A stretch of DNA of 64,000 bases. Origin: Muricauda sp. MAR_2010_75 (GTDB taxonomy: Bacteria; Bacteroidota; Bacteroidia; Flavobacteriales; Flavobacteriaceae). The stretch spans positions 1,697,501 through 1,761,500 of the forward strand of contig NZ_JQNJ01000001.1 of NCBI RefSeq assembly GCF_000745185.1, written 5' to 3'. Below the pieces are notes generated by a model. It was not told the origin of the DNA. It ran no database searches and saw nothing but the letters and a program-made list of their open reading frames with translations. The translations under genes and the position numbers were made by a program. Position 1 is the first letter of the stretch; every line of letters starts with the position of its first letter. This document shows, in pieces, positions 40,741-59,246 of the stretch.

Positions 40741-40781
40741 AATTTTACTTTGAGGCCCTAAATAAATGTATCAAAAGAATC

Positions 40782-40813
40782 AGGACCAAAAACCCATAAG
40801 GTAATTTGGTCCT
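40782..40813 (-). terminator. Terminator after yceI-like gene
   Basis: AGGACCAAA and TTTGGTCCT form a 9-bp stem with a 14-base loop. T-rich sequence follows on both strands. It separates the YceI gene from the PepSY gene. Confidence 0.6.
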
Positions 40814-40841
40814 TTCTTATTCTCTTTTTCTAATAGTAGTT

Positions 40842-41402: not shown

Positions 41403-41690
41403 GATGTGTTTAAATTTAGGTGTTAGTGATTGTTTAATTCGTTTCAAGCGTTAAAGTATCATAATTTATTTAGAAACTTTAATTTTTAAAAAGATGAAGA
41501 TCAATATGGTAAAATAGAGTTGAACTTTAAACAATTTTCTGTGAACGACTCAGGTTGACCCCTAATCAACTGGTTTGTAGAAAACTATAGTTAAGGTGTT
41601 GTTCATGGGGTTAACTTTGTTGTTGGCGAAACAGTTTTTTTCCAGACCTTTTTTATCGCTAGTTTTGATTCTTGATTTAATTGGAACGAA
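41403..41690. other. Intergenic region between yceI-like gene and LytS pair
   Basis: These 288 bases contain both divergent promoters; no convincing -7 boxes or hairpins were seen. Confidence 0.35.
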
Positions 41691-42689: not shown

Positions 42690-42694
42690 GGAAT

Positions 42695-43384
42695 ATGAGA
42701 TGTATCATTGTTGAAGATCAACCCCCTGCCCAACGAATTCTTCAAAAGTTCATAGAAGATGTCAATCACCTTGAGTTGGTCGGGATATTCTCTGACGGGT
42801 TACAGGCCATGGAGTTTTTGAACTCAAAACCTGTGGACTTAATGTTTTTGGACATCCACTTACCCAAAATCAATGGCATTGAGTTTTTAAAAAGTATACC
42901 AGATGCGCCCCATGTAATTCTCACCACTGCTTTTTCGGAATATGCTCTGGAAGGATATGACCTCAACGTAGTGGATTATTTGCTGAAACCGTTCTCTTTT
43001 CAACGTTTTCTTCAGGCGGTAAATAAAGCCAGCATGAAACAAGAACAGGAAGAAGCCGTTACATCCAATCAAATCAGTGAGATCTATGTCAAGTCCAGTC
43101 ACGAGCACATTAAAGTGTCTGTCAACGATATTTTGGCCATTTCTTCTGATTCCGATTACACAGAAATCCGTACCGAAAAAAGAAAGGTACTTTCCAATGA
43201 ACCCTTACGGCATTGGGTGGATATTTTAGGGCCACCCCATTTTTTCCAAGTCCACAAGTCACATATTGTGAACACCAAAAAGATAGACCGTATATCAGGA
43301 AACTTGGTTTATCTTATTGACGGCTCAAAAATACCGTTGGGCCGTGCCTACAAAGACCACTTTCTGAAAAATATCTTGGGGTAA
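42695..43384 (+). CDS. LytTR-family response regulator
   Basis: This 229-residue protein has a receiver domain with E7/D8, phospho-acceptor D53 (LMFLDIHLPKINGIEFL) and K in VDYLLKPF, followed by a LytTR DNA-binding domain from about 125 (EIYVKSSHEHIKVSVNDILA, FFQVHKSHIVNTKKIDRI). It forms a two-component pair with the upstream kinase. It is followed by a xylanase gene in the same direction, but the operator and promoter between them suggest separate control. Confidence 0.95.
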   Translation: MRCIIVEDQPPAQRILQKFIEDVNHLELVGIFSDGLQAMEFLNSKPVDLMFLDIHLPKINGIEFLKSIPDAPHVILTTAFSEYALEGYDLNVVDYLLKPFSFQRFLQAVNKASMKQEQEEAVTSNQISEIYVKSSHEHIKVSVNDILAISSDSDYTEIRTEKRKVLSNEPLRHWVDILGPPHFFQVHKSHIVNTKKIDRISGNLVYLIDGSKIPLGRAYKDHFLKNILG

Positions 43385-43422
43385 AGAGCAATTGTGTTTT
43401 TATCATAAAGACCCTCCACAAT

Positions 43423-43434
43423 GCAATCGATTGT
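43423..43434 (+). promoter_or_regulatory. LacI-type operator of the exported GH10 gene
   Basis: GCAATCGATTGT differs by one base from the perfect palindrome at 54996 (GCAATCGATTGC) and by two from the site at 49242. It lies just upstream of the TATATTTG box at 43447, near the expected -33 position, so a bound repressor would block the promoter. Confidence 0.7.
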
Positions 43435-43446
43435 TTGGCTTTTGAT

Positions 43447-43454
43447 TATATTTG
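43447..43454 (+). promoter_or_regulatory. -7 promoter box of the exported GH10 gene
   Basis: TATATTTG matches the Bacteroidota -7 consensus TAnnTTTG and lies 45 bases before the GH10 ATG at 43499. It supports that start, since the longer frame from 43421 would include the promoter. Confidence 0.6.
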
Positions 43455-43498
43455 GCACAATCACTGATAATCAATCTATTGTACTTAAAATTTTACAA

Positions 43499-44611
43499 AT
43501 GAACACAAAATCAGACAGCAGCAAGCTTAAATACTTTTTGTTAATGGTATTAGCGGCAGTATCGACGGTATTTCTTGGGTATTCCCAAGAAGAAGCATCA
43601 GAAAAGGGCCTTAAGGATTATTATAAGGACCATTTTCCTGTTGGGGTGGCAGTTTCGCCTAGAGCCTTGGAAGGAGAAAGTGCCGAGCTGATCTTAAAGC
43701 ATTTTAACAGCATGACACCGGAAAATGTTATGAAAATGGGACCAATCCATCCAGAAGAGAATCGGTATAATTGGGAATATGCGGACCAAGTTGCCGACTT
43801 TGCCGTAGAACATAACCTAAAATTGCGGGGGCATGCCCTATGTTGGCACAACCAAGCCGGTGATTGGATTTTCAAAGATAAAAATGGAGATCAGGTGAGC
43901 AAGGAAGTGTTGCTCCAACGTTTAAAAGACCATATCACTACTGTAGTAAAGCGGTACAAGGGAAAGATATATGCTTGGGATGTGGTCAATGAAGCAATAT
44001 CGGACAAGGAAGATGAATTTTTAAGAGATTCTCCGTGGTACCAGATCTGTGGGGAGGATTTTATCATCAAGGCATTTGAATATGCCCATGAAGCCGACCC
44101 TGACCTTAAACTGTTTTATAACGACTATAGTGCTGTACATCCCATAAAAAGGGACAAAATCTATAAGTTGGTAAAAATGATCCAAGATGCTGGGGTGCCA
44201 ATTCATGGGGTGGGCATTCAAGGTCACTTTTCTATTTATGAACCCACAGAGCAGGAATTAAGGGACGCCATAGAAAAGTACGCTTCTTTAGGTGTTGAAG
44301 TCCAGATAACCGAACTGGATGTTTCCGTATACCACAAAGAACATAGTAGGAGAGATCCCTTGCCAAAAGATGAGGATGATGCCTTTAAACCAGAGCAGGA
44401 GCAGAAACAAATCAAACAATACGATATGCTGTTCAGGGTTTTTAGGGATTATGAGGATACACTTACCAGCGTGACTTTTTGGAATATCTCTGACCGTTAT
44501 TCGTGGTTGGATAATTTTCCGGTACGGGGACGAAAAAATTATCCGTTACTGTTCGATGAAAAATTGCAACCCAAAAAAGCCTATTACAAAGTAATAGACT
44601 TCGAGGAGTGA
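43499..44611 (+). CDS. GH10 endo-1,4-beta-xylanase, exported
   Basis: The start at 43499 (MNTKSDSSKLKYFLLMVLAA) is taken because promoter and operator lie just before it. The 370-residue product has a signal peptide (FLGYSQ) without lipobox and one GH10 barrel: NSMTPENVMKMGPIHPEENR, LRGHALCWHNQ, acid/base Glu165 in YAWDVVNEAIS, DPDLKLFYNDYS, IHGVGIQGHFS, nucleophile Glu272 in QITELDVSVY, and LTSVTFWNISDRYSWL. It cleaves beta-1,4-xylan or xylo-oligosaccharides, probably in the periplasm or outside. It is transcribed away from the symporter gene, sharing the bidirectional terminator at 44632, and probably under the LacI regulator through the site at 43423. Confidence 0.96.
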   Translation: MNTKSDSSKLKYFLLMVLAAVSTVFLGYSQEEASEKGLKDYYKDHFPVGVAVSPRALEGESAELILKHFNSMTPENVMKMGPIHPEENRYNWEYADQVADFAVEHNLKLRGHALCWHNQAGDWIFKDKNGDQVSKEVLLQRLKDHITTVVKRYKGKIYAWDVVNEAISDKEDEFLRDSPWYQICGEDFIIKAFEYAHEADPDLKLFYNDYSAVHPIKRDKIYKLVKMIQDAGVPIHGVGIQGHFSIYEPTEQELRDAIEKYASLGVEVQITELDVSVYHKEHSRRDPLPKDEDDAFKPEQEQKQIKQYDMLFRVFRDYEDTLTSVTFWNISDRYSWLDNFPVRGRKNYPLLFDEKLQPKKAYYKVIDFEE

Positions 44612-44631
44612 AAAAACGAAAAGAATATAAA

Positions 44632-44660
44632 AAAGCCCAGATTGTTTCTGGGCTTTTATT
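44632..44660. terminator. Bidirectional terminator between GH10 and symporter genes
   Basis: AAAGCCCAG-ATTGTTT-CTGGGCTTT forms a 9-bp stem flanked by A and T runs, suited to stop both converging transcripts. Confidence 0.85.
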
Positions 44661-44681
44661 ATTATATGTAACCGCAATTGA

Positions 44682-46334
44682 CTACCCTGTAAAGTACGAT
44701 AGAATCGCAATTACAATGACTACCAATAATACGGAGAGCACTACATCTATGGTACTGTAGCTTCCTTTGGTTGCAGTACGATCTTCGGCAGATAAAGTAC
44801 CAAAGGACAAACCTTTGATCAAAGCATAATTTGGTGGCGCTGTGGCCAAGGTTACCGCAATACATAGTGCTACCGAAAATATGAACATGAAAATTGCCAT
44901 GTGGGCAAAATTAACTGTAGCAAAGGCAAACATAAAGCCAGATACATCTTCACCAGCTGCAATCTGTGGTTGATAATAGATTTCTGAGCCCAAACGGAGT
45001 ATCAATAATACTAGACCGGCCAGAAGCGTTGTAATGGCCGCTTTGGAATTGACTCGTTTCCAAATAATACCCAAAAGGAAAACAGTGGTCACTGGTGGAG
45101 CAATATAAGATTGCACATTTTGAAGGTATTGATACATGACCCCACCCCCAATTTTATCCATAATAGGAATCCAAATGATGCCCAGTACAACAATAAATCC
45201 GGTTGCCACTTTACCTATGGTCAATAATTGACGCTCTGTTTTTTCTGGGCGCAATTTTTTATAGATATCAATGGTGAAAATTGTGGAACAGGAATTGAAC
45301 ACAGAGGCCAATGAGCTCATCAGAGCAGCCATAAGTCCACCGGCCACCAAACCTTTCAATCCAACTGGAAGAAGTGTTTTAACCAACATTGGGAAAGCCC
45401 TGTCCGCGCGTTCTACACTAAAAACCTCTGGGTTTTGTACGGTCAATGCAAAGGCAATAATACCGGGAATCAAGAAAATTAAAATGGGCATCAATTTTAG
45501 ATAGGCTCCAAAAATGGCTCCTCGTCTACCAATTTTAATATTATTGGCGGCAAGGGTACGTTGTACTATGTACTGATCCGTACACCAATACCAAATCCCC
45601 ACGATGGTACCACCGAACAATAGTCCGGTCCACGGAAAATCTGGGTCGCTCATGGGGCGCCACATGTTAAAATGATCTGGACTTACCGCGGTTACAGTTT
45701 CATGGAGTTGGCTCCATCCACCTACTTCTTTAAGGCCCAAATAGGTAATGATCAATGAACCTAGAATAAGAATAATGGTCTGAAGGGTTTCGGTATAGAT
45801 TACCGCTTTCATCCCACCGATGATCGTGTAGATTCCGGTAAAGACCACCACTCCAATGGCTCCGTACCAAAACGGAATCCCCAAAAGTTCGGAAACCACA
45901 ATACCACCGGCATAGATGGTTACCGAAACCTTGGTCAAAACATAGGCGACCAATGAGAAAATGGACAAAAACCAACGGGATTTACTATCAAATCGTTTTT
46001 CGAGAAACTCGGGCATGGTAAAGGCCCCACTTCGAATGTAGAACGGTAGGAACAACCAACCGAGCAATAATACAATCCAAGCATGTAGCTCATAATGGGC
46101 CATGGGTGTGCCCGATTCAAATCCCGTACCGGCCAACCCCACTACGTGCTCCGAACCAATGTTCGATGCAAAAATTGAGGCGCCGATAACGAACCATCCC
46201 ACGTTTCTACCAGCCAAAAAGTAGTCCTCGGTATCTTTGTTCTTTTGGGCGACCACCCAAACGGCCACTCCAATAAGTGCCAAAAAGTAGATGCCTAGGA
46301 CGATCCAATCCGGCCTCTCTAAAACTGATTCCAT
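44682..46334 (-). CDS. SSS-family sodium/sugar symporter, probably xylose
   Basis: This 550-residue protein has about 14 membrane helices. It contains the SSS signature blocks EDYFLAGRNVGWFVIGASIF and ASNIGSEHVVGLAGTGFESG, the typical IYTIIGGMKAVIYTETLQT and WYWCTDQYIVQRTLAANN, and the C-terminal helix VVLSVLLVVIVIAILSYF. SglT-type members import sugars with Na+. It sits 34 bases downstream of xylA as the third gene of xylB-xylA-symporter, which points to D-xylose or a xylo-oligosaccharide as cargo. This is inferred from context. Confidence 0.92.
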   Translation of the reverse strand: MESVLERPDWIVLGIYFLALIGVAVWVVAQKNKDTEDYFLAGRNVGWFVIGASIFASNIGSEHVVGLAGTGFESGTPMAHYELHAWIVLLLGWLFLPFYIRSGAFTMPEFLEKRFDSKSRWFLSIFSLVAYVLTKVSVTIYAGGIVVSELLGIPFWYGAIGVVVFTGIYTIIGGMKAVIYTETLQTIILILGSLIITYLGLKEVGGWSQLHETVTAVSPDHFNMWRPMSDPDFPWTGLLFGGTIVGIWYWCTDQYIVQRTLAANNIKIGRRGAIFGAYLKLMPILIFLIPGIIAFALTVQNPEVFSVERADRAFPMLVKTLLPVGLKGLVAGGLMAALMSSLASVFNSCSTIFTIDIYKKLRPEKTERQLLTIGKVATGFIVVLGIIWIPIMDKIGGGVMYQYLQNVQSYIAPPVTTVFLLGIIWKRVNSKAAITTLLAGLVLLILRLGSEIYYQPQIAAGEDVSGFMFAFATVNFAHMAIFMFIFSVALCIAVTLATAPPNYALIKGLSFGTLSAEDRTATKGSYSTIDVVLSVLLVVIVIAILSYFTG

Positions 46335-46368
46335 AATTAATTGTTGTTAGTTTGCTTAGTGATTTTTA

Positions 46369-47694
46369 TTAGATGTACTGATTGATAATGTTCTCAAACA
46401 GTTCCTGCTTACCACTGCGCTTTTTAATGTCTTGGTTTGCAGACGCATGACCGTGAAGGTCTTCCAATGTCAACGTACCATCCTCAAACGCTTTTCCGGT
46501 GCCGGAATCGAATGAACTATATCGCTCTTTACGGAGACTAATATAATTGGAATTTTCCAATACGTCATTTGCTGCCAACAGAGCCCTTGCAAAAGTGTCC
46601 ATTCCGCCAATATGCGCATGGAAGATATCATCAAGATCGGTTGAGTTTCTTCGGATTTTTGCATCGAAGTTGATACCGCCTCCTTGGAAGCCTCCTGCTT
46701 GAAGTATGACCAACATGGCCTGTGTAAGCTCGTATACATCCACTGGGAACTGATCGGTATCCCATCCGTTTTGGTAATCTCCACGGTTGGCATCAATACT
46801 TCCCAACAAGTTGTTATCAGCGGCAACCTGAAGCTCATGCTCAAAAGTATGTTGCGCCAAAGTAGCGTGGTTCACCTCAATGTTCAATTTAAAATCATCC
46901 AAAAGATCATACTTAGTCAAGAAGCCCAATACAGTTGCTGAGTCAAAATCATATTGGTGCTTTGTGGGCTCCATGGGTTTTGGCTCGATAAAGAAGGTTC
47001 CTTTGAATCCTTGTTTTCTTGCATAATCTTTGGCCATATGAAGGAATCGGGCCATGTGGTCCTGTTCACGACCCATATTGGTGTTCAAAAGGGACATATA
47101 CCCTTCACGACCGCCCCAAAAGACATAATTTTCACCGCCCAATTTTATAGTCGCATCCAATGCATTTTTCACCTGGGCACCAGCGTAGGCAACAACATCA
47201 AAATCTGGATTGGTGGCCGCACCGTTCATATACCTTGGATTGCTGAAGCAATTGGCTGTGCCCCAAAGAAGTTTTACCCCAGAGGCTGCCATTTTTTCTT
47301 TGGCATAATCGGTGATGATTTGCAGTCTTTTTTCAGATTCTGCCAGCGTACCGCCTTCGGCAATCAAATCAAAATCATGAAAACAATAGTAAGGAGCACC
47401 TATTTTGGTAATAAATTCAAAAGCGGCATCCATTTTGTCCTTGGCCTGCTGGATGGGATCTGTACTCGTCAACCATGGAAATTCTTGGGTGGGCGCTCCA
47501 AAAGGGTCGCCTCCAACTCCGGTGAAGGTATGCCAATACGCAATGGCAAATCTGAAATGCTCTTTCATGGTCTTTCCACCGACCACTTTGTTCTCATCGT
47601 AATATTTAAATGATAGGGGATTGTCCGATCCTTTTCCTTCAAAAGATATTTTCCCTATACCTTTAAAATACTCCTTGTCTCCTTTCGTAATCAT
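46369..47694 (-). CDS. xylA: Xylose isomerase
   Basis: This 441-residue product has the usual length of the class II enzyme. It contains the catalytic region [55 protein letters not shown], metal-ligand stretches [17 protein letters not shown] and [19 protein letters not shown], and [19 protein letters not shown]. It converts D-xylose to D-xylulose with divalent metal in the cytoplasm. It is the second gene of the xylB-xylA-symporter unit (13 bases after xylB). Confidence 0.98.
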
Positions 47695-47707
47695 AGTTTT
47701 AAGTTAT

Positions 47708-49192
47708 TCAATTGTCAATATATTCTTCTAATTGTTTTTTCCATTCATCGTAAGCTTCGCGATATTTTTCCATTGGGTCATCAGGCTGATAGGTCAATTG
47801 TACAGCATCTGTCTCGGTTGCTTCGCCAATACTTTTAAAATCTCCAAACGCAAAGGCGGCTGCTCGTGCAGCTCCTACAGCTCCAGTGGTCTCTACAATA
47901 TCGATTCTACTATTGGTCAGTGTGGCGATGGTCCTCGAAAAAATTCCAGCCCGAAACAAATTATCGTTTCCAGCCTTGATGGAGGCTATATCAACTCCAT
48001 CATTTTTAAGAATTTCCATGCCGTACACAAAAGAGAAGGCAATGCCTTCCAATGCAGCCCTAAAAATATGCGGTGCTTTGTGCACATTAAAGTTGAGGTT
48101 TAAAATTCGAGACCCTTTGTTGCTATTGTTCAGCATGCGTTCAGCACCGTTTCCAAAAGGTAGAATATTTAATCCTTCTGAACCAATAGGAACAGATTCA
48201 GCTTGTTCGTTCATGCTGTTGTATGAAAGCGCGTTGGTCAATTCGTTTCTGACCCAGCTATATTGAATGCCCGTACCATTGATGCACAGGAGTTTGCCAA
48301 TTCTGGTATCGTCTCCAGTATGGTTTACATGGGCAAAACTGTTGATTCGCGTATGCTCTTGTGTATTTTTTTGGCCCGAGATGGCATAGACTACGCCGGA
48401 AGTACCTCCAGTAGCAGCAATTTCACCAGGTTCCATGACATTGAGTGCCAAAGCGTTGTTAGGCTGGTCGCCGGCACGGTACATAATGGGAATCCCTTCG
48501 GGTAGTCCTGATTCCTGGGCTCCTTGTTTTGAGACAATGCCTTGCTGAGAAAAAGAAGGACGTATCTTAGGAATTAAGGCAGGATCAATACCAGCGTCTT
48601 CCAAAAGCCATGAAGCCACATCGTTTTCTTTAAAGTCCCACATAATTCCTTCTGAAAGTCCAGAAGGGGTGGTAACACAAGACCCAGATAGTTTTAGTGC
48701 GATATAATCGCCCGGCAGCATGAATTTGTGGATTTTTTTAAAGGTATCCGGCTCATTATCCTTTACCCATTTTAATTTTGAAAGCGTGAAATTTCCGGGA
48801 GAATTCAGCAGATGCTCCACACATTTATCTTTTCCAGAAGCCTGAAACAATTGCTCGCCAATTTCCACGGCGCGGCTGTCGCACCAAATAATGGAAGGCC
48901 TTAAGGGTTGAAGGTTTTTATCAACCGTGACCAATCCATGCATTTGGTACGATATTCCTATACCTTTAATGTTATTTTTGGAAATGTTGTTATTGGAAAT
49001 CAACTCTTGGGTGGCGGCACATAAATGCTTCCACCAAAGCTCGGGGTCCTGTTCTCCCCAACCTAGGTTGATTGATATAATGGGCATTTCCTTTTTGGGA
49101 TATTGTGCAATGTCCAGTACGCTGCCATCATCGGCATTGATGAGGGCTGCTTTGATGGAGGAACTACCAATATCGAAACCTATCCAGTGCAT
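47708..49192 (-). CDS. xylB: Xylulokinase (FGGY family)
   Basis: The start at 49190-49192 (MHWIGFDIGSSSIKAALINA) puts the FGGY nucleotide-binding loop at the N-terminus as in the family; the longer frame from 49222 adds ten residues. The 494 residues show the ATP and sugar motifs SYQMHGLVTVD, WCDSRAVEIGEQ, the second domain ATGGTSGVVYAISG, LCINGTGIQYSW and the adenine-binding TGAVGAARAAAFAFGDF. It phosphorylates D-xylulose to xylulose 5-phosphate for the pentose phosphate pathway. It is first in the unit, preceded by a -7 box and operator at 49228-49253. Confidence 0.96.
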   Translation of the reverse strand: MHWIGFDIGSSSIKAALINADDGSVLDIAQYPKKEMPIISINLGWGEQDPELWWKHLCAATQELISNNNISKNNIKGIGISYQMHGLVTVDKNLQPLRPSIIWCDSRAVEIGEQLFQASGKDKCVEHLLNSPGNFTLSKLKWVKDNEPDTFKKIHKFMLPGDYIALKLSGSCVTTPSGLSEGIMWDFKENDVASWLLEDAGIDPALIPKIRPSFSQQGIVSKQGAQESGLPEGIPIMYRAGDQPNNALALNVMEPGEIAATGGTSGVVYAISGQKNTQEHTRINSFAHVNHTGDDTRIGKLLCINGTGIQYSWVRNELTNALSYNSMNEQAESVPIGSEGLNILPFGNGAERMLNNSNKGSRILNLNFNVHKAPHIFRAALEGIAFSFVYGMEILKNDGVDIASIKAGNDNLFRAGIFSRTIATLTNSRIDIVETTGAVGAARAAAFAFGDFKSIGEATETDAVQLTYQPDDPMEKYREAYDEWKKQLEEYIDN

Positions 49193-49227
49193 AAATCGAA
49201 ATTGAGTAATTTTTTGATACAATTTTT

Positions 49228-49235
49228 CAAATATA
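49228..49235 (-). promoter_or_regulatory. -7 promoter box of the xylB unit
   Basis: On the minus strand TATATTTG (plus-strand CAAATATA) fits TAnnTTTG exactly and is 35 bases before the xylB start. AATTTACG-like bases near 49260 could serve as the -33 part. Confidence 0.65.
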
Positions 49236-49241
49236 GGTAAC

Positions 49242-49253
49242 GGAATCGATTGC
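49242..49253. promoter_or_regulatory. LacI-type operator between xylB and the regulator gene
   Basis: GGAATCGATTGC (one mismatch to the perfect site GCAATCGATTGC at 54996, followed in both by GCGT/TAAA-like bases) lies 6 bases upstream of the xylB -7 box, that is between -33 and -7. A bound regulator would exclude RNA polymerase. It is also 195 bases before the lacI-type gene, so autoregulation is possible. Confidence 0.75.
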
Positions 49254-49447
49254 GTAAATTTATTTCTTTAAATAATTTAGTGTAGATTGTGGTTTTTTAA
49301 CAAATCATTTTTTTCTGTTAGTATAAGTATGGCACTAACAATTGGAAAAATAATACTCTAAAAAGGAAACTAAAAGTTAATTTAGTAACTTGAAATTCAG
49401 GTCCGTTTCCATTCTTGGACTTGGACGACCTAACCGCATTATGACAG

Positions 49448-50497
49448 ATGAAGATTAAAAAGGAGGTTACCATCTACGATCTCGCCAAAGAATTGAACTA
49501 CTCTCCCTCGACTATTTCAAGAGCTTTGAACAACCATAAGAGTATCAGTAAGAAGACCATAAAGTTGATTAAAGAAGCTGCTGAGGAAATGGGATATCGT
49601 CCCAATAATTTGGCTGCAGGACTCAGAAACAATAAAAGTAATACCATTGGGGTGCTTATTTCCCGGATAAACAGACCTTTTATGGCTTCCTTGATCAGTG
49701 GTATTGAAGAAACCGCCCGGAAAGCTGGGTACAATGTGTTGATAAGCCAGTCCAATGATAAGTATGAAAACGAGGTCAGTAATTGTAATGCACTATACGA
49801 TAGCCGCATTACCGGTCTTGTGGTTTCCCTTTCCATGGAAACTGTTGATATGGGGCACTTCCAAAAATTTATAGATAAGGGAATACCCACCGTTTTTGTG
49901 GATAGGGTCCCAGACAATTTCAATTCCTATAAAGTTGTTATTGACAATTACACAGCAGGTTATTCGGCAACCAAGCATTTAATTGAACAGGGATGCAAAC
50001 GGATTGCGCATTTTGCCGGAGCACAGCACAGAAATATTTACGAAGAGCGGAAAAAGGGATACTTGGATGCTCTAAAGGAATATGACCTGCCTGTTGAGGA
50101 AGACCTTATCATTCATTTTAAAACATTGAGTTTTGAGGAAGGAAACAAAGCCACCAAAAAACTTCTTAAAATGAAAAACCCACCTGATGGCATATTTTCG
50201 GCCAATGATACAGCTGCAGTGAGCGCCATTATGTGTGCAAAGAAAATGGGAGTGGATGTCCCTCATGATCTTGCCGTAATAGGATTCAACGACGACCCAA
50301 TTGCTTCCATTGTGCAGCCCTCACTTTCAACCGTATCACATCCTGCCGCTAAAATGGGTGCCATATCTGCAAGACGCATCCTAGATCATTCGGGTCAAAA
50401 TTATGATACCGATCTCTCTGAAATAACGGTTCTGGGCACGGAAATTATCGTAAGGGATTCCTCTTTGAAGAAAGTCCCTAGCCTAAAAGCCAAATAA
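49448..50497 (+). CDS. LacI-family transcriptional regulator of the xylan locus
   Basis: This 349-residue protein has an N-terminal HTH (VTIYDLAKELNYSPSTISRA, hinge NNLAAGLRNNKSNTIGVLIS) and a periplasmic-binding-protein-like effector domain (RITGLVVSLSMETVDM, IPTVFVDRVPDNF, GCKRIAHFAGAQHRN, GIFSANDTAAVSAIMCAKKM, DLAVIGFNDDPIASIVQPSL). It lies between the xylose unit (divergent) and the glucuronate TRAP/uxaC unit (convergent), and palindromes of LacI-operator type occur before these units. It probably represses them until a sugar or uronate inducer binds. The effector is not known. Its 3' end overlaps the TRAP permease 3' end by 15 bases. Confidence 0.93.
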   Translation: MKIKKEVTIYDLAKELNYSPSTISRALNNHKSISKKTIKLIKEAAEEMGYRPNNLAAGLRNNKSNTIGVLISRINRPFMASLISGIEETARKAGYNVLISQSNDKYENEVSNCNALYDSRITGLVVSLSMETVDMGHFQKFIDKGIPTVFVDRVPDNFNSYKVVIDNYTAGYSATKHLIEQGCKRIAHFAGAQHRNIYEERKKGYLDALKEYDLPVEEDLIIHFKTLSFEEGNKATKKLLKMKNPPDGIFSANDTAAVSAIMCAKKMGVDVPHDLAVIGFNDDPIASIVQPSLSTVSHPAAKMGAISARRILDHSGQNYDTDLSEITVLGTEIIVRDSSLKKVPSLKAK

Positions 50498-51769
50498 TCT
50501 GGGTAGCCAGAGACTCAATTCTGGGAAAATACTTACCAGAATCAGTGCAATGATCATGGCCAAGAACAAAGGTAAAAGTGGGCGTACAACCTTTTGAATG
50601 GAGGTTCGTGCCACTCCAATCCCAATAAAAAGAACCGATCCCACTGGAGGTGTGCACAATCCAATGCAAAGGTTTAAAACCATGATGATTCCAAAATGAA
50701 CCGGATCAATACCTAATGCGGTGGTAACTGGAAGAAAGATTGGGGTGAAAATGAGGACAGCAGGGGTCATATCCATAAATATTCCAACCACCAACAATAT
50801 AATATTAATGAGAATCAAGACCATAATTTTGTTATCGCTCAGGCCCAGTAACGCATCGGTCATGGCTTGCGGGATATTTTCATAAGAGAGCACCCAGGAC
50901 ATCGCCATGGACATGGCAATCAACAACATAACAATGGCTATAGTGGAAGACGATTCCACTAAGATTGGCCTGATATTTTTAAAGGAAACTTCTTTATAGA
51001 TGGCAGCCAACGCCAAGCAATATAGAACGGCGACTGATGATGCTTCAGTGGCCGTGAAGATTCCAGCGACAATTCCACCTATGACCACTACTAATAAAAA
51101 AAGGCTTGGCAAGGCTTTCACAAATGTGCTGAATACGTTCTTAAGGGAGCTCCTATCCGCGGTTGGGTACCCTTTTCGCTTGGCCCATATATAGGCAACA
51201 ACCATGAGTAAAAGTCCAGTAAGAATTCCGGGTAAATAACCCGCCAAAAACAAAGCGCCAATGCTTACCCCTCCACTGGCCACAGAGTAGATAATGAATA
51301 CATTACTAGGCGGAATGACCAACCCTGTAGTTGCAGAGGTAACATTTACCGCGACACCAAAACCTTTGTCATAACCAGACTCTTCCATTTTATCTGACAT
51401 AAAACCACCTATTGCTGCAGCGGCTGCCCCAGCTGATCCAGCAATGGCCCCAAACAGCATGGCGGCAACAATGTTCACGTGGGCCAGCCCTCCCGGAAGA
51501 GAACCTACGAGAGCTTTGGCAAAATCGATCAACCGTTCGGCAATACCTCCTTTGTTCATGATATGTCCGGCTAAAATAAAGAAAGGAATGGCCAGAATGG
51601 AAAAGCTGTCAAGTCCAGTGACTATGCGTTGTGCAATAGTGGTCAATGCGGGAAAGGTGTCCACACTTACAACAAGGGTAAGCAAGGATGAAATCCCCAG
51701 GCACCAAGCCACGGGAACCCGTAGTGAAATTAGAACCAGAAAGCTCAAAATGAGAATGCTAATTTCCAT
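50483..51769 (-). CDS. TRAP transporter large permease (DctM type)
   Basis: This 428-residue protein has about 12 membrane helices. Motifs: FSILAIPFFILAGHIMNKGG, VNIVAAMLFGAIAGSAGAAA, GLVIPPSNVFIIYSVASGG, the ATEASSVAVLYCL stretch, and LNLCIGLCTPPVGSVLFIG near the C-terminus. It is the main Na+-coupled channel for a carboxylate substrate. It is the last gene of uxaC-dctP-dctQ-dctM with overlaps between the TRAP genes, which suggests uptake of glucuronate or an aldouronic acid. The substrate is inferred. Confidence 0.95.
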   Translation of the reverse strand: MEISILILSFLVLISLRVPVAWCLGISSLLTLVVSVDTFPALTTIAQRIVTGLDSFSILAIPFFILAGHIMNKGGIAERLIDFAKALVGSLPGGLAHVNIVAAMLFGAIAGSAGAAAAAIGGFMSDKMEESGYDKGFGVAVNVTSATTGLVIPPSNVFIIYSVASGGVSIGALFLAGYLPGILTGLLLMVVAYIWAKRKGYPTADRSSLKNVFSTFVKALPSLFLLVVVIGGIVAGIFTATEASSVAVLYCLALAAIYKEVSFKNIRPILVESSSTIAIVMLLIAMSMAMSWVLSYENIPQAMTDALLGLSDNKIMVLILINIILLVVGIFMDMTPAVLIFTPIFLPVTTALGIDPVHFGIIMVLNLCIGLCTPPVGSVLFIGIGVARTSIQKVVRPLLPLFLAMIIALILVSIFPELSLWLPRLFGF

Positions 51770-52238
51770 TTTTCAAGTTTTTAAAGGTGGTTTGTAGGTC
51801 CAATATTTTGTAGTATGAGACAAAAAGTCCAGCAATGGGCATCACTATATAAACAACCCCTATGGGAAGTTTTAATGCTGGGGATGTTTGCCCTAAAGCG
51901 AAGGAAATATAGACATAGCGCAGACCGCCAACCAAAAAGACAGCAATGGCAAATAACAGCACAATGGAGGTAGTAATGATGTCAAGTATTTTCTTATTGC
52001 GATCGTTGAGGTATTTGGGCAAAAGATCAATGGCTATATGCAGTTTCTTACCAGAGGCATAGGCAGCGCCCAAAATACTTAACCAAATCAGTAGAAATCG
52101 AGCCAGCTCATCGGTCCATGAACTTTGGCTATCCAAAATGTACCGCGTAATTACGCCCCAGAAAACATCTATCACCATGGTACCCAACAAAATGGCAAGA
52201 GTCCATTCCAAAAAAAGATCTATCCGGTTTTTTGTCAT
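51759..52238 (-). CDS. TRAP transporter small permease (DctQ type)
   Basis: This 159-residue protein has four membrane helices (WTLAILLGTMVIDVFWGVIT, FLLIWLSILGAAYASG, IITTSIVLLFAIAVFLVGGL, VVYIVMPIAGLFVSYYKIL) and the family block QSSWTDELARFLLIW. It bridges the binding protein and the large permease. It overlaps dctM by 11 bases and dctP by 4 bases. Confidence 0.93.
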   Translation of the reverse strand: MTKNRIDLFLEWTLAILLGTMVIDVFWGVITRYILDSQSSWTDELARFLLIWLSILGAAYASGKKLHIAIDLLPKYLNDRNKKILDIITTSIVLLFAIAVFLVGGLRYVYISFALGQTSPALKLPIGVVYIVMPIAGLFVSYYKILDLQTTFKNLKNGN

Positions 52239-53209
52239 TTTACTTTTTTTATTTGCTGCGCGAGCTGATACAGGTGCTCATCCTTTTCTTTCAAGGCTTT
52301 GAGCATGGACTCCGATTTCTCCTCAAAAAGGGATTTGTCCGGATATGAAACTTCAACACCAGCCTTTTCCACTTCCTCCAAGGCCTCCTGCTCTGCCTCC
52401 TTCCAGAGTTTATGTTGATATACTGTAGCCTCTTCGGCGGCTTCCGTGATCCATTTTTTTTCGGAATCTTTCAATTTGTCCCAAACAATGGTGCTTATGG
52501 CCAAAATATCGGGTACGGAGGTATGTTCGTCCAAAGACAGAAATTTGCATACCTCATAATGTTTTGAGGAATAAAAACTCGGCAAGTTGTTCTCGGCACC
52601 GTCCACCACTCCCTGTTGAAGGGCAGTGTACAATTCTCCCCAAGAGATGGGAGTAGGGGAGCCCCCAAATGTTTTGACCATTTCTATGGCCGTGGGACTT
52701 TGCATTACCCTGACTTTTAATCCCTGCAAATCTTCAGGCTTATCAATAGGAGTGTTTTTGGTGTAGAACGAACGATTTCCGGCATCAAAGTAGGTCAATC
52801 CCTTCAACCAATATTTTTCAGAACCTGAAAGGAGTTGTTTTCCAATGGCCCCATCATATACTTTAAATCGATGTTCATCGTCCCGGAAAAGATATGGATA
52901 CCCGAGCACTCGTAAATCTGGGGAGAAATTTTCCATAACGGCGGCGGAAACCTTGGTCATGCCCAAACTGCCTATTTGGAGGAGTTCCAAGCATTGCTTT
53001 TCGGAACCCAACTGGCTGCTTGGGTATATCTCGAGCGTTAATTTTCCGTCCGATTTTTTGGCCACTAAGTCGGCCATATAGACCATGGCTTCGTGAACAG
53101 GGTGGGTAACCCCAAGGCCATGGGCCAATTTTATGGAGTTGGCCGCTTTTTTATCTGGTTCACAGGAAAGCAGCAACAATGAGCATATGAAAATTATTCT
53201 GATGTTCAT
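52235..53209 (-). CDS. TRAP transporter substrate-binding lipoprotein (DctP type)
   Basis: This 324-residue protein has a lipoprotein signal (lipobox LLLSC) and then the DctP fold: IKLAHGLGVTHPVHEAMVYM, KLTLEIYPSSQLGSEKQCLE, GLKVRVMQSPTAIEMVKTFG (with the conserved Arg that binds the carboxylate) and QQGVVDGAENNLPSFYSSKH. It is anchored in the cytoplasmic membrane rather than soluble. It is coupled with dctQ by a 4-base overlap and 3 bases from uxaC, so uronate uptake is the likely job. Confidence 0.94.
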   Translation of the reverse strand: MNIRIIFICSLLLLSCEPDKKAANSIKLAHGLGVTHPVHEAMVYMADLVAKKSDGKLTLEIYPSSQLGSEKQCLELLQIGSLGMTKVSAAVMENFSPDLRVLGYPYLFRDDEHRFKVYDGAIGKQLLSGSEKYWLKGLTYFDAGNRSFYTKNTPIDKPEDLQGLKVRVMQSPTAIEMVKTFGGSPTPISWGELYTALQQGVVDGAENNLPSFYSSKHYEVCKFLSLDEHTSVPDILAISTIVWDKLKDSEKKWITEAAEEATVYQHKLWKEAEQEALEEVEKAGVEVSYPDKSLFEEKSESMLKALKEKDEHLYQLAQQIKKVK

Positions 53210-53212
53210 AAC

Positions 53213-54643
53213 TTACCCTTTCAAGGTAAGGTTTTCCACCAAACTGGGGAACTGAAAAAATTCTTTGGCATTGTTGTAGGTAATGTCCTGAACGATTTTT
53301 CCAATCCATTTCATGTCATTAGGGATTAGTCCAGCTTTAATGTCATTGCCCAACATATTACAGAGTACCCTTCTGTAGTATTCATGTCTTGGAAATGATA
53401 GAAAGCTTCTACTGTCCGTGAGCATTCCCACAGAACAACTCAACAACCCCATATTGGAGGTGGCATCCAGCTGGTCCTTTATGCCATCCTTTTGATCCAG
53501 AAACCACCAAGCAGCGCCAAATTGGACCTTACTTTTTATTTCCTCTCCCGTAAAATTGCCAGCCATTGTAGCAAAAACCTCATTATCTGAAGGATTGGAA
53601 TTATAGAGGATGGTCTTGGGCAAACCGCCACTATTGTTCAGTCTATTTAAGAAACTGGCCAACTGTTCCGCTTGGGGATAATCGCCAATACTGTCAACAC
53701 CCGCATTGATACCAATTTTTGTCAGAATGGCCTTGTTGGTATCCCTAATAGGTCCTAAATGGAGTTGCATCACCCAGTTTTTTTCGGCGTATAATTGCCC
53801 CAACAGATGAAGGATTGCAGATTTGTACTGTCGGATTTCTGTTTGGGAAATCGATTTTTCATCTAATCTTTTGGAAAGGATTTCATTGACTTCTTTTTCT
53901 GTGTAGGCAAAGCCATACGCATGGGGAAGGCCATGATCGGAAAGTCTACAGCCATTTTCATGAAAGTAATCCACTCTTTTTTGGATGGCCTTGCCCAACG
54001 ATTCGAAATCGGTAATGGAAATGTCGGTCATTTTGGAAAGCGCGGACAAATAATCTGTAAAATCAACCTTTTCAATATCTATTAAACCATCTGGACGAAA
54101 CGTGGGAAGCACTTTCACAGGGTAATCAGACCCTGACAGTTTTATATGATGGGAAAGATCATCCAACGGGTCGTCTGTAGTACATACCACTTCAACATTC
54201 ATTCTATTGACCAAATTGCGTGATGAGAAAGTGGTTTTTTTCAATTCTGAATTACACTTTTCATATATTTTACCTGCATTTTCTGGGATTAAGAGTTCTT
54301 CTATCCCAAAATAACGGCTTAACTCTAAATGGGTCCAATGATACAAAGGATTTCTTAGCGTGTAGGGTACGGTTTCAGCCCATTTTTTGAACTTTTCTTC
54401 ATCAGTGGCCTTTCCTGTGATAAATTGTTCAGGGATGCCCAGTGCACGCATGGCCCTCCATTTATAATGGTCGCCCTCTATCCAAAGTTTGGTAATGTTG
54501 TCAAACTTTTTGTCCTCGGCCAGTTCATTGGGAGGAAGGTGACAGTGATAATCTATGATAGGTTGGTTCTTTGCATAGTCATGATAAAGCGTTCTGGCAT
54601 AATCGGTTTCCAACAAAAAGTCATCATGGATAAATTTTTTCAT
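53213..54643 (-). CDS. uxaC: Glucuronate isomerase
   Basis: This 476-residue protein is the usual UxaC length: FIHDDFLLETDYARTLYHDY, IIDYHCHLPPNELAEDKKFD with metal-binding His, EVVCTTDDPLDDLSHHIKL, NGCRLSDHGLPHAYGFAY, MQLHLGPIRDTN and GMLTDSRSFLSFPRHEYYRR. It converts D-glucuronate to D-fructuronate (and galacturonate to tagaturonate). It is first in the uxaC-TRAP unit and diverges from aguA across a region with palindromes. With the SDR and UxuA it forms the Ashwell-type glucuronate path. Confidence 0.97.
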   Translation of the reverse strand: MKKFIHDDFLLETDYARTLYHDYAKNQPIIDYHCHLPPNELAEDKKFDNITKLWIEGDHYKWRAMRALGIPEQFITGKATDEEKFKKWAETVPYTLRNPLYHWTHLELSRYFGIEELLIPENAGKIYEKCNSELKKTTFSSRNLVNRMNVEVVCTTDDPLDDLSHHIKLSGSDYPVKVLPTFRPDGLIDIEKVDFTDYLSALSKMTDISITDFESLGKAIQKRVDYFHENGCRLSDHGLPHAYGFAYTEKEVNEILSKRLDEKSISQTEIRQYKSAILHLLGQLYAEKNWVMQLHLGPIRDTNKAILTKIGINAGVDSIGDYPQAEQLASFLNRLNNSGGLPKTILYNSNPSDNEVFATMAGNFTGEEIKSKVQFGAAWWFLDQKDGIKDQLDATSNMGLLSCSVGMLTDSRSFLSFPRHEYYRRVLCNMLGNDIKAGLIPNDMKWIGKIVQDITYNNAKEFFQFPSLVENLTLKG

Positions 54644-54660
54644 GCTATGTTTTTCTCTCG

Positions 54661-54930
54661 TTATTCGTTAATTAAGGTTAATGGTTCCAATACTCTTTTT
54701 TGTGGTCCACAGACCAATGGCTTAAAGAAAAATTGCAACAGTGTTTTGTTCCGCCATTCAATAGGGAGTATACCCAAGCGTTGAATGATAATGGTAATGT
54801 AGAATGGAAAATCGTGGATGGAAGTTGCTTCTTTTGTAGACGAGAACTCAGCTGGTGCTTGGCCAAATGTTTTTTTGAATGCCACAAAATAGGTAAAGAG
54901 GGTCCCGAACACTAATTTGAAAAACTTCAT
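54661..54930 (-). CDS. Possible small exported protein or relic upstream of uxaC
   Basis: This 89-residue frame starts MKFFKLVFGTLFTYFVAFKK, a signal-like hydrophobic start, then FGQAPAEFSSTKEATSIHDF and a hydrophobic stretch. No family was recognised and no strong ribosome-binding site is visible. It lies 17 bases upstream of uxaC in the same direction. It could be a short member of the unit or a truncated gene. Confidence 0.3.
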   Translation of the reverse strand: MKFFKLVFGTLFTYFVAFKKTFGQAPAEFSSTKEATSIHDFPFYITIIIQRLGILPIEWRNKTLLQFFFKPLVCGPQKRVLEPLTLINE

Positions 54931-55106
54931 GATTTGATTTTGATTACTATGGTTTTACTAAAAGAGCTTCAAATTTCGTAAAAATATCGATTTTTGCAAT
55001 CGATTGCGTTAAACATTTTGTTAATCTATGAATTTTTTACTTATTTTACTCGGTGCAATTGATTGATTAAGCAATTAATCGATTTTTTTTTGTCAATTTC
55101 TAAATT
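54931..55106. promoter_or_regulatory. Divergent promoter region uxaC/aguA with LacI-type palindromes
   Basis: The perfect 12-bp palindrome GCAATCGATTGC is at 54996-55007, followed by GTTAAAC. Two weaker relatives are GCAATTGATTGA (55054-55065) and GCAATTAATCGA (55071-55082). GAAATTTG on the minus strand (54970-54977) could be part of the uxaC -7 box. The region separates two catabolic units that would be controlled together. Confidence 0.7.
54996..55007. promoter_or_regulatory. LacI-type operator, perfect palindrome
   Basis: GCAATCGATTGC reads the same on both strands. It is shared with one-mismatch sites at 43423 and 49242, all located upstream of xylan or uronate genes. Confidence 0.75.
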
Positions 55107-57287
55107 ATGAGACAGTCCATGAAGTTAAAAGTAAGGTATTTTTTTGGTATTTTCTTTTTGGTTTCGGCCACATCCTTTTCAATGTCAAATGGATACGAAC
55201 TTTGGCTAAATTACAACAAGATTGCAGATGAGGACCTACGCAATGAATATCGCTCCAACCTTCAGACAATTTATCTGGAAGGAGACAGTGATACCCATTT
55301 GGCCATTAAAAAAGAATTGCAGATGGGGTTTGGTGGATTGTTGGATACCGAAGTGATCTTCCAAAAGTATAATGGAACAGGCAATGCACTAATCGTTGCA
55401 AAATATGATGACTTGCCACAAGATTTTAAGACTATCGTTACAGCAGAGGGGCTTACCGAAGAAGGATATGTCATAAAAACTGCTCAACTCAAAGACAAAT
55501 CCTATGTTGTGGTTTCCTCTAAAGGAGATATTGGACTGCTTTATGGCACCTTTCACTTTCTAAGACTATTGCAGACCCATACCCCATTAACGGACATTGA
55601 TATAATGGAAATGCCTAAAGTGGACATTAGGGTGTTAAATCATTGGGACAATATGGACAGGAGCGTGGAGCGTGGTTATGCTGGTTTTTCCATTTGGAAC
55701 TGGCACACGTTGCCGGGTTACATTGACCAACGATATATAGATTATGCCCGGGCAAATGCCTCAGTGGGAATCAATGGAACGGTGCTTACCAATGTAAATG
55801 CCAATGCATTGATATTGACACCACACTATTTGGAAAAGGTAAAAGCCTTGGCTGAGGTTTTTCGACCATATGGCATTAAGGTGTATCTAACCGCTAGGTT
55901 CTCCGCACCCATTGAAATTGGAGGATTGGAAACCGCCGATCCGCTTGACCCAAATGTCATTCAGTGGTGGAAAGACAAGACCAAGGAAATTTATACCATG
56001 ATTCCGGATTTTGGTGGGTTTTTGGTAAAGGCGAATTCCGAAGGGCAGCCTGGTCCCCAAAACTATGGAAGAAGCCACTTGGATGGCGCCAACCTTATGG
56101 CCGATGCATTAGAGCCCTATGGTGGATTGGTAATCTGGCGTGCGTTTGTCTATTCTGAGCATGATCCGACGGACAGAGCAAAACAAGCCTATTCCGAATT
56201 TATTCCAGAAGATGGCAAATTCAAGGATAACGTGTTGCTTCAGGTAAAAAATGGAGCAATAGATTTTCAGCCTAGAGAACCTTTTCATCCCATGTTTGGA
56301 GCCATGCCCAATACACCATTGATGATGGAATTTCAAATTACCAAAGAGTATTTGGGGTTTGCAACCCATTTGGTATTTCTGCCCAAACTTTTTGAAGAAG
56401 TATTGAAATCAGATACCTATCGGAAGGGAAAAGGATCCTTAGTGGCCAAGGTAATAGATGGTTCCTTGGACAATAAAAAACTTTCCGGAATGGCCGGGGT
56501 ATCCAATGTGGGTACCGACATAAATTGGACAGGGCACCCTTTCGGTCAGGCAGATTGGTATGGATTTGGGCGATTGGCTTGGGATCCTTACATGGATTCT
56601 GAAACTATTGCCGATGAATGGCTCCGTGTCACCTTTGGCAATAATGATAAATTTGTGGAACTCGTAAAACAGATGATGATCGAATCCAGGGAAGCTGTGG
56701 TCAATTATATGAACCCGCTTGGGTTGCACCATATTTTTGATACAGGACACCATTACGGTCCTGGACCCTGGGTAGGCAATCTATCAAGACCGGAATGGAA
56801 CCCGGTGTATTACCACAAAGCAGATGATGATGGGGTTGGGTTTAATCGAACAAAAACAGGTAGTGACGCCCTATCGCAATACGCTCCAGAAGTGGAAAAA
56901 ATGTTCACAGACTTGGAAACCTGTCCGGAAGAATACTTATTGTGGTTTCACCATTTGCCATGGGACTACACCTTAAAAAATGGAAGGACCCTTTGGGATG
57001 GCCTGGGGTTGAAATATCAAGAAGGCGTAGATCAAGTTCGGGATATGATCAAGACCTGGAAGGCTATGGAGCCCTACGTAGATAAAGACCGCCATCATCA
57101 GGTTTCCATGTTGCTCAACATACAGCTCAAAGAAGCCATATGGTGGAAAGATGCTTGTATGAGTTATTTCCAGACCTTTTCAAAAATGGACTTTCCCAAA
57201 GAAATGGAAGCCCCCGAGCATACCTTGGAATATTATAAATCGTTAAAATTTCCTTATGCGCCGGGTATCCGGCCCAGATGGAACTAA
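55107..57287 (+). CDS. aguA: GH67 alpha-glucuronidase, exported
   Basis: This 726-residue protein has a signal-like N-terminus (a second ATG at 55119 is possible) and the GH67 start GYELWLNYNKIADEDLRNEY. Next come VLNHWDNMDRSVERGYAG and the catalytic-domain blocks FLVKANSEGQPGPQNYGRSH (likely acid/base Glu312), KNGAIDFQPREPFHPMFGAM (Asp386) and MEFQITKEYLGF (likely base Glu414). The C-terminal helical part has HHLPWDYTLKNGRTLWDGLG. It removes 4-O-methyl-glucuronic acid from the non-reducing end of aldouronic oligosaccharides made by xylanases. It is first of the aguA-SDR-uxuA-GH10 unit, divergent from uxaC. Confidence 0.96.
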   Translation: MRQSMKLKVRYFFGIFFLVSATSFSMSNGYELWLNYNKIADEDLRNEYRSNLQTIYLEGDSDTHLAIKKELQMGFGGLLDTEVIFQKYNGTGNALIVAKYDDLPQDFKTIVTAEGLTEEGYVIKTAQLKDKSYVVVSSKGDIGLLYGTFHFLRLLQTHTPLTDIDIMEMPKVDIRVLNHWDNMDRSVERGYAGFSIWNWHTLPGYIDQRYIDYARANASVGINGTVLTNVNANALILTPHYLEKVKALAEVFRPYGIKVYLTARFSAPIEIGGLETADPLDPNVIQWWKDKTKEIYTMIPDFGGFLVKANSEGQPGPQNYGRSHLDGANLMADALEPYGGLVIWRAFVYSEHDPTDRAKQAYSEFIPEDGKFKDNVLLQVKNGAIDFQPREPFHPMFGAMPNTPLMMEFQITKEYLGFATHLVFLPKLFEEVLKSDTYRKGKGSLVAKVIDGSLDNKKLSGMAGVSNVGTDINWTGHPFGQADWYGFGRLAWDPYMDSETIADEWLRVTFGNNDKFVELVKQMMIESREAVVNYMNPLGLHHIFDTGHHYGPGPWVGNLSRPEWNPVYYHKADDDGVGFNRTKTGSDALSQYAPEVEKMFTDLETCPEEYLLWFHHLPWDYTLKNGRTLWDGLGLKYQEGVDQVRDMIKTWKAMEPYVDKDRHHQVSMLLNIQLKEAIWWKDACMSYFQTFSKMDFPKEMEAPEHTLEYYKSLKFPYAPGIRPRWN

Positions 57288-58061: not shown

Positions 58062-59246
58062 ATGATTAAAATGCAACAGACCATGCGCTGGTATGGCCCT
58101 CATGATGCCATTACATTGGCCGATATTCGGCAATGTGGTGCATTAGGAATTGTTACGGCTCTACACCAAATACCCGTTGGGGAGGTTTGGGAGGTGAAAG
58201 ACATCAAAGAAAGACAGCAGATGATTCGTGATGAAGGAATGGAGTGGACTGTGATTGAGAGCTTGCCAGTTCATGAAGACATCAAACGAGGAGGGGGCGA
58301 TTACCAAAAATATATCGCCAACTATAAAAAGAGTTTAGAGAACATTGCTGAATGTGGTCTAAAAGTGGTCGCTTACAATTTTATGCCCATTTTGGATTGG
58401 GTTCGCACGGACCATGCCTATCAGAATATCGATGGGACAAAAGCACTTTTATTTGATGAACGAGCCTTTATCTATTTTGATGTTTTTCTGTTACAAAGAC
58501 CTGGAGCGGAAGAGGACTACAGCAAAGAAAAATTGAAAGCGGCCATCGTATATGGCAATAGTCTGGATGAAGCCGCTCAACAAAAATTGTATAGGAATGT
58601 ACTGTTGGGCCTTCCGGGAAGTGATGAAAGCTTCACCAAGGAAAAAGTACTGGAATTGTTGGATGACTATAAAGGAATCAACGATGAAGACCTTAGAAAA
58701 AACCTAATTCATTTTTTGTCGGAAGTAGCTCCGGTGGCTGAAAAGTTAGGGGTTCAATTGGCCATTCACCCAGACGACCCACCATTTTCTGTACTGGGAT
58801 TGCCCAGGGTAGTATCCACTGAAAATGATCTTAAAGAAATTTTAGCTGGGGTGCCCATAAATGCCAATGGACTCTGTTTTTGCACAGGTTCTTTAGGTGC
58901 AAATCCAAACAATGATCTTCTTCGAATCATAGAAGAAAACGGAGATCGTATACACTTTTTGCATCTCAGAAATGTAAAACGGGAAGAAGGCAAACGTTTC
59001 AGGGAATCGGAACACCTTAATGGCGATAATCCTATGGAAGCCATTGTGGAGAAGCTATTAATGTTGATGCAAAAAAACAATAAAGAACTTCCCATGCGAC
59101 CCGACCATGGCTTTCTGCACTCGTTTGAGAAGGTAGAAAAATACCCAGGATATTCCTTGATTGGTAGGCTTAAGGGATTGGCAGAAATACGTGGGCTGGA
59201 GTTGGGGTTGTCCTATAAGTTACAACAGGCACAAATTGAAAAATAA
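58062..59246 (+). CDS. uxuA: Mannonate dehydratase
   Basis: This 394-residue protein matches the family in length: MQQTMRWYGPHDAITLADIR, ADIRQCGALGIVTALHQIPV, IKRGGGDYQKYIANYKKSLE, VVAYNFMPILDWVRTDHAY, VQLAIHPDDPPFSVLGLPRV (metal ligands), NGLCFCTGSLGANPNNDL, IHFLHLRNVKRE and MRPDHGFLHSF. It dehydrates D-mannonate to 2-keto-3-deoxy-D-gluconate. It starts 17 bases after the SDR stop, 30 bases before the GH10 lipoprotein. A kdgK/kdgA pair for the next steps is not in the window. Confidence 0.97.
   Translation: MIKMQQTMRWYGPHDAITLADIRQCGALGIVTALHQIPVGEVWEVKDIKERQQMIRDEGMEWTVIESLPVHEDIKRGGGDYQKYIANYKKSLENIAECGLKVVAYNFMPILDWVRTDHAYQNIDGTKALLFDERAFIYFDVFLLQRPGAEEDYSKEKLKAAIVYGNSLDEAAQQKLYRNVLLGLPGSDESFTKEKVLELLDDYKGINDEDLRKNLIHFLSEVAPVAEKLGVQLAIHPDDPPFSVLGLPRVVSTENDLKEILAGVPINANGLCFCTGSLGANPNNDLLRIIEENGDRIHFLHLRNVKREEGKRFRESEHLNGDNPMEAIVEKLLMLMQKNNKELPMRPDHGFLHSFEKVEKYPGYSLIGRLKGLAEIRGLELGLSYKLQQAQIEK

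Follow-up and report, generated by a model that had tools for sequence, protein, structure and literature searches.

In a 64,000-nucleotide stretch of the Muricauda sp. MAR_2010_75 genome (the window; positions 1697501-1761500 of the 4.42-Mb chromosome, with coordinates past its end continuing the window numbering), we found a recurring palindrome in front of genes for glucuronoxylan use, and the sequence makes it highly probable that a LacI-family protein encoded among them (49448-50497) binds this operator and represses a glucuronoxylan regulon until released by a cytoplasmic breakdown product. The repressor would recognize the core GCAATCGATTGC, extended to approximately ACGCAATCGATTGCGT. 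In the window, the repressed units would be the first glycoside hydrolase family 10 (GH10) gene, GH10a; xylB-xylA-symporter; lacI itself; aguA-SDR-uxuA-GH10b-esterases (SDR, short-chain dehydrogenase/reductase); and probably the divergent uxaC-TRAP unit (TRAP, tripartite ATP-independent periplasmic transporter). Beyond the window, they would comprise GH2/GH30, a TIG/CBM protein, susC-susD/GH43 and an unlinked GH115 gene. Binding, repression, autoregulation and operon extents we infer from sequence.

The original prediction, made from the letters of this DNA, had placed three palindromes at 43423, 49242 and 54996, and we found all of them there with at most one mismatch, together with a weaker fourth site. 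The features concerned are the following.

43423..43434, unstranded: operator GCAATCGATTGT; the likely GH10 start follows 65 bp on, and a like site precedes a GH10 gene in L076 and L079
43447..43454, + strand: putative -7 box TATATTTG of the GH10 promoter
49228..49235, - strand: putative -7 box TATATTTG of the xylB promoter
49242..49253, unstranded: operator GGAATCGATTGC of the xylB/lacI divergent promoter, kept in 5 of the 6 genomes aligned (including this one)
49448..50497, + strand: LacI-family regulator (PF00356 and Peripla_BP domains), the proposed operator reader
54996..55007, unstranded: operator O1, perfect GCAATCGATTGC, between uxaC and aguA
55055..55066, unstranded: weaker operator-like O2, GCAATTGATTGA, 59 bp from O1, with equal spacing in G010, G017 and G019

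At one mismatch or fewer, the window held three matches against 0.16 expected, and none of 100 shuffles had three; at two mismatches or fewer it held four against 2.89 expected, a cut-off that was not significant because 32 of 100 shuffles gave at least four. Genome-wide, 18 places matched with at most one mismatch and six of them fell in one 43-kb glucuronoxylan locus (between 1740923 and 1782944); at the density found outside it, a 48-kb stretch should hold 0.13 sites (P ~6e-9, an optimistic value because the interval was picked after the sites had been seen). Past the window, further sites were found at 67755 between GH2 and GH30, at 76688 before the TIG/CBM gene, and in the susC/GH43 spacer at 85433 and, with 2 mismatches, at 85546. 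Two of the three perfect 12-mers of the genome were in the locus; the third is at 3.71 Mb, 60 bp upstream of a GH115 gene of 951 codons. The operator-linked set exceeded the three units originally proposed, adding susC/GH43, GH2/GH30, the TIG/CBM protein and the distant GH115. Outside the locus there were 12 places, eight in genes (L008, L009, L010, L016, L017, L019, L021, L022) and four between genes, namely the GH115 site (L007) and L015, L018 and L020, the last three having no visible link to xylan.

Upstream conservation in relatives supported the originally predicted link to the LacI gene. In six aligned genomes, this one counted, the operator and its flanks were kept in five xylB-lacI spacers, much of the remainder having diverged; the corresponding region of G015 has a different arrangement. 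O1 was kept before aguA in all six, although G007 has a change in one half-site; four of them (G000, which is this genome, G010, G017 and G019) have both O1 and O2 at the 59-bp spacing. We also collected 67 LacI loci by scanning named genomes with N-terminal peptides, which favours similar helices, and counted as orthologues the 29 (L076-L104) that reached ~50% identity, the remaining 38 serving for comparison; some of these records come from genomes that also carry G handles, so the two samples overlap. The nearest named loci belonged to Muricauda, Flagellimonas and Allomuricauda. A site was present in 28 of the 29 orthologue loci (51 sites) versus 13 of the 38 comparison loci (15 sites), and lay between genes or no more than 90 bp into a called open reading frame (ORF) in 49 of 51 and 13 of 15 cases, respectively. 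Among all 4096 palindromic 12-mers, GCAATCGATTGC ranked first in the orthologue loci (28 loci; next 21) and again in ten one-per-lineage loci (9; next 6). Of the 27 orthologue loci that contain aguA, 23 had the site immediately in front of that gene, and in L096 it occupied the susC/GH43 divergent promoter. Moreover, GH67 and the lacI orthologue were found in the identical 16 of 71 genus genomes. The same operator also precedes an IlvD/EDD-family gene in four relatives (G017, G019, G039 and G047; L151, L152, L182 and L188), followed in G019 (L151:9723-15373) by GntP, FAA-hydrolase and aldehyde dehydrogenase genes, a run that we take to be a Weimberg-type operon.

The symmetrised profile of 57 sites extended the operator to ACGCAATCGATTGCGT, of which only the flanks are independent information, because the sites were chosen by 12-mer match, many of them being orthologous. 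Allowing up to three mismatches, the 18-mer TACGCAATCGATTGCGTA matched seven genomic places, five of them in the regulon (GH115, xylB/lacI, TIG/CBM, aguA, susC), and its reversed-pattern control matched none; the other two were 1387416, inside a gene, and 2136385, ~300 bp before an extracytoplasmic function (ECF) sigma gene and unexplained. The only perfect genomic copy of this 18-bp extended operator precedes the GH115 gene, 2 Mb from the locus. Across the genus, the 18-mer WRCGCAATCGATTGCGYW (2 mismatches) occurred on average 4.6 times per genome with lacI (n = 16) versus 1.4 times without (n = 55; P 2.6e-7, relatedness ignored). When 23 of the 18-mer loci were inspected, one per genome, nine of the ten from lacI-bearing genomes lay at regulon-type genes (four IlvD/EDD, two lacI, one TIG/CBM, one GH10-like and one GH115, the last being in G064 (L204), with a perfect 18-mer). 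Of the 13 from lacI-less genomes, nine were inside genes and four between genes (L184, L192, L195, L196), those of L184 and L195 adjoining another LacI homologue. Separately, AACGAAATCGATTTCGTA recurs in the 5' part of a pckA-like gene (named by eye) in the regulator-less genus members G043, G061 and G021 (L185, L198, L200).

The protein itself matched the LacI domains well above their cut-offs (PF00356 46.9 bits against 27, PF13377 114.7 against 26.5, PF00532 96.6 against 22.2), and GCAATCGATTGC is an even palindrome with a central CG, the form expected of a LacI-family operator. Seven of ten orthologues examined, from the Flagellimonas group to Salegentibacter, carried the recognition helix NYSPSTISRALN or NFSPSTISRALN; the other three, from the Lewinella group and metagenome-assembled genomes, differed. 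The operator of Escherichia coli PurR, a protein among the PDB relatives by sequence, is ACGCAAACGTTTGCGT; it shares the flanks and central CG, differs at two inner positions and serves another physiology. Upstream of the two other full-length LacI genes of this genome, found with this protein as query, we noted two candidate palindromes, CGAAAACGGTTTCG (6 of 7 pairs) and TTTAAACGTTTAAA, both CG-centred, and no palindrome was found upstream of a short LacI-like ORF at 2093417. Two Flavobacterium homologues with the helix SVSYVSKALN had no site within 350 bp, L126 having one 4.9 kb off. In G017 (L073/L060), the same xylan locus holds a second LacI copy, 56% identical and ~22 kb off, with a changed recognition helix (LATSTISRGL) and GCAAACGGTTGC upstream. 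The proposed link between the lacI gene and the shared palindrome is supported by the clustering, the conserved footprint, the presence in 28 of 29 loci, the first rank among 4096 and the co-distribution with GH67.

The original gene assignments (GH10, SSF symporter, xylA, xylB, LacI, UxaC, GH67) were confirmed by profile matches, and the genes of the window are as follows.

43500..44611, + strand: GH10 xylanase (GH10a), probably exported (N-terminus judged by eye); PF00331; ORF opens at 43421
44682..46334, - strand: sodium:solute symporter (SSF), PF00474; substrate suggested by position
46369..47694, - strand: xylA, xylose isomerase; TIGR02630 above cut-off
47708..49222, - strand: xylB, xylulokinase-type FGGY kinase; PF00370/PF02782; TIGR01312 below its cut-off; ATG probably at 49189
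50483..51769, - strand: TRAP large permease DctM, PF06808
51759..52238, - strand: TRAP small permease DctQ, PF04290
52235..53209, - strand: TRAP solute-binding protein DctP, PF03480
53213..54643, - strand: uxaC, glucuronate isomerase; PF02614; NF002794 above cut-off
55107..57287, + strand: aguA, GH67 alpha-glucuronidase, PF07488
57256..58044, + strand: SDR oxidoreductase, PF13561; probable fructuronate reductase (UxuB role suggested by position)
58062..59246, + strand: uxuA, mannonate dehydratase, PF03786
59277..60467, + strand: second GH10 xylanase (GH10b), PF00331
60554..63238, + strand: acetylesterase-like (SASA) protein with a polysaccharide deacetylase domain; PF03629, PF01522
63186..64000, + strand: glucuronyl-esterase-like protein running past the window; PF22244 on the whole ORF, the in-window part without a match

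For GH10a we preferred the ATG at 43500 because the ORF start at 43421 would place the operator inside the gene. The DctMQP transporter belongs to the uxaC side. The locus, followed to 1797899, extends beyond the window to susC/susD and makes up a full set for glucuronoxylan utilization; its content is GH10, SSF symporter, xylA, xylB, lacI, DctMQP, uxaC, GH67, SDR, uxuA, GH10, acetylesterase/deacetylase and, further on, glucuronyl-esterase-like, GH2, GH30-like, three FG-GAP/ASPIC proteins, the TIG/CBM protein, susD, susC and GH43. The three FG-GAP/ASPIC-UnbV proteins are large (771, 1096 and 1097 aa; L063:8727-19543). A full-length GH3 enzyme is encoded in G019 between the aguA operator and uxaC (L072:3863-6151, - strand), where G010 keeps a 94-aa ORF matching the C-terminal part of that enzyme (E 5e-11); in this genome, an 89-aa ORF at 54661-54930 (- strand) has no Pfam match and a weak GH3 match (E 0.002, composition correction off), an apparent loss of the GH3 gene.

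Bacteroidota promoters have a -7 box of consensus TAnnTTTG. As originally predicted, TATATTTG is found near two of the operators (43447-43454 on the + strand and 49235-49228 on the - strand), with the 49242 site just upstream of the -7-like box of xylB; the operator centre lies 12.5 bp upstream of the box at xylB and 18.5 bp at GH10a. Since these two operators overlap or adjoin the likely core promoter, we infer repression, their positions being suited to a steric mechanism. A sigma-70 promoter scan around aguA gave no match, sigma-70 being the wrong promoter type here. At aguA, O1 and O2 could hold two dimers or a looped tetramer. By start-codon arithmetic, the operator is 30-140 bp from 7 of 11 gene starts. 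The predicted placement before xylan or uronate units held for the gene assignments; of the divergent uxaC/aguA pair, only aguA is close to the 54996 site, the uxaC start being 353 bp away. According to PMC4052901, LacI operators are generally even palindromes with a central CG, more than 75% of them precede the start codon by 30-140 bp, and autoregulation applies to 72% of LacI-family regulators.

As to the effector, a cytoplasmic glucuronoxylan breakdown product, either a xylan-derived sugar or a sugar acid, would release the repressor. We give a compound of the glucuronate branch roughly an even chance, because aguA-SDR-uxuA are the usual neighbours of lacI in the orthologue loci, GH67 is co-distributed with it, and xylA/xylB are near lacI in fewer loci. 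But the operator also stands at the xylose genes and GH10, and xylose or a xylo-oligosaccharide is a possible, less probable signal.

Several observations weigh against a single repressor acting through this site. One orthologue locus (L091) has no site, and 4 of the 27 aguA-bearing orthologue loci have none directly before aguA. Four of the six two-mismatch matches of the locus are inside genes (69801, 77620, 85036, 85739), and in one lacI-bearing genome the inspected 18-mer (L189) stands beside unrelated genes. Counts of 12-mers with at most one mismatch overlap between six genus members with the regulator (8-18) and 18 without (4-15); we therefore discarded the genome-wide 12-mer count as a co-occurrence test, the groups being separated by the 18-mer instead. 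A perfect TAnnTTTG occurs within 80 bp at only 3 of 8 operators of the genome, the box near 85433 faces away from susC, and the starts of lacI, uxaC, GH2 and the TIG/CBM gene are farther from their operator (194-353 bp). Finally, in five loci of distant LacI proteins with SP-T-SR-L helices (L109-L112, L139) the regulator's own gene is preceded by GCAAYCGATTGC, and L113 and L116, whose helices differ, have like sites upstream. The core alone cannot name the regulator, because related LacI proteins use similar operators.

It is these similar cores before other LacI homologues in relatives that would speak for a different regulator as the reader of the palindrome, its adjacency to lacI being incidental. 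We consider this very improbable, given that regulator and GH67 share the same 16 of 71 genomes, that sites are present in 28 of 29 orthologue loci, that LacI operators typically have CG at their centre (for 1173 of 1303 regulators in PMC4052901), and that the other full-length LacI genes found in the genome have other palindromes. A chance or compositional origin, for which the unexceptional window count at two mismatches could be cited, is practically negligible: the genomic clustering and the conservation in orthologous loci reject it, as do the first rank among 4096, the 18-mer result and the one-mismatch window count.

The palindrome may also be a LacI operator that merely fine-tunes, with the main induction coming from another system such as global catabolite control or the histidine kinase-LytTR response regulator pair at 41691-43384. 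This pair adjoins GH10a, and its homologues occur in 4 of the 29 orthologue loci (L076-L079), three of them beside GH10a (L076, L078, L079). For the remaining 25 loci, a search reaching up to 10 kb on each side did not find it, and 24 of them keep the palindrome; a LytTR protein as reader of the palindrome was rejected on this ground. Moreover, the palindrome tracks lacI and GH67, which argues against a separate main system, and we regard this division of labour as unlikely, albeit the strongest of the three competing explanations. The preferred explanation remains that the LacI protein is the repressor of the regulon.

LacI control of a xylan locus had been called unusual for Bacteroidota in the original prediction. 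This is right insofar as a 2024 review names hybrid two-component systems (HTCS), ECF sigma factors and carbon catabolite repression as the three common systems (PMC10766802), and too strong insofar as LacI regulators are predicted or listed in Bacteroides, Algoriphagus and Gramella flava. A 2025 paper describes earlier beta-1,4-xylan systems under LacI regulators or HTCS (PMC12125979). XylR of Xanthomonas and Caulobacter is a LacI-family, xylose-released repressor of xylan-degradation and xylose genes acting at a xyl-box (PMC10380989); the sites here precede both xylan and xylose units, whose control is predicted. That system, likened here by its description, is proteobacterial, and a SusCD pair and a TRAP transporter belong to the regulon proposed here. 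In Bacteroides, the LacI-family UxuR, UxaR and KdgR are predicted for glucuronate/galacturonate catabolism (PMC3878776, PMC4052901); polysaccharide loci there are assigned to HTCS and SusR-like regulators, and xylose to an NrtR-type XylR (PMC3878776). The likeness (family, uronate catabolism and phylum) is again one of description; those regulators serve monosaccharide pathways, whereas one regulator here appears to span all tiers. Algoriphagus marincola UxuR2, also LacI-family and compared by its description, is predicted to act on a Bacteroidetes-type TRAP transporter as well as on uronate genes (PMC5507952), without mention of a xylan locus in the text available ("xylan" 0 times). The xylan polysaccharide utilization loci of the flavobacterium Gramella flava contain GH10, GH43, GH67, xylA/xylB, SusCD and a lacI gene listed in a figure legend, and growth on xylan induces their genes for enzymes, transport and xylose use (PMC5306329); the text available gives no operator or regulator function. 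In Roseithermus, LacI genes adjoin hemicellulase clusters (PMC7409140). With xylan repressors of the LacI family known from Xanthomonas and uronate regulators of that family predicted in Bacteroides, the LacI control proposed here is of an already known type. Its interest is that one LacI protein apparently spans a SusCD locus, xylose genes and glucuronate genes; in the portions retrieved by a literature search of open-licence PMC papers (supplements excluded), no prior description of this operator or regulon was found.

None of the 30 Pfam-scanned protein queries in or beside the locus was an HTCS, SusR-like or ECF/anti-sigma protein, a scan that left out window positions 1-35000, two small ORFs at 40231-41447, genes past GH43 and unlinked regulators. 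It is an evenly balanced proposition that, in this Flavobacteriia lineage, one cytoplasmic LacI repressor takes the place of the usual periplasmic sensors (HTCS, SusR, ECF) in governing a complete SusCD polysaccharide locus and, through one operator, brings in unlinked units (GH115 and, in relatives, the presumed Weimberg-type pentose-acid operon), the whole pathway answering one intracellular breakdown product.

Glucuronoxylan is a wood- and grass-type plant fibre, and its whole utilization set apparently stands under one lac-repressor-like protein, giving a marine Bacteroidota polysaccharide locus a defined operator and a predicted regulon of ~10 transcription units. If LacI is the main switch, the bacterium would respond to an internal breakdown product and not to a periplasmic oligosaccharide, and the modelling and engineering of such loci should change.

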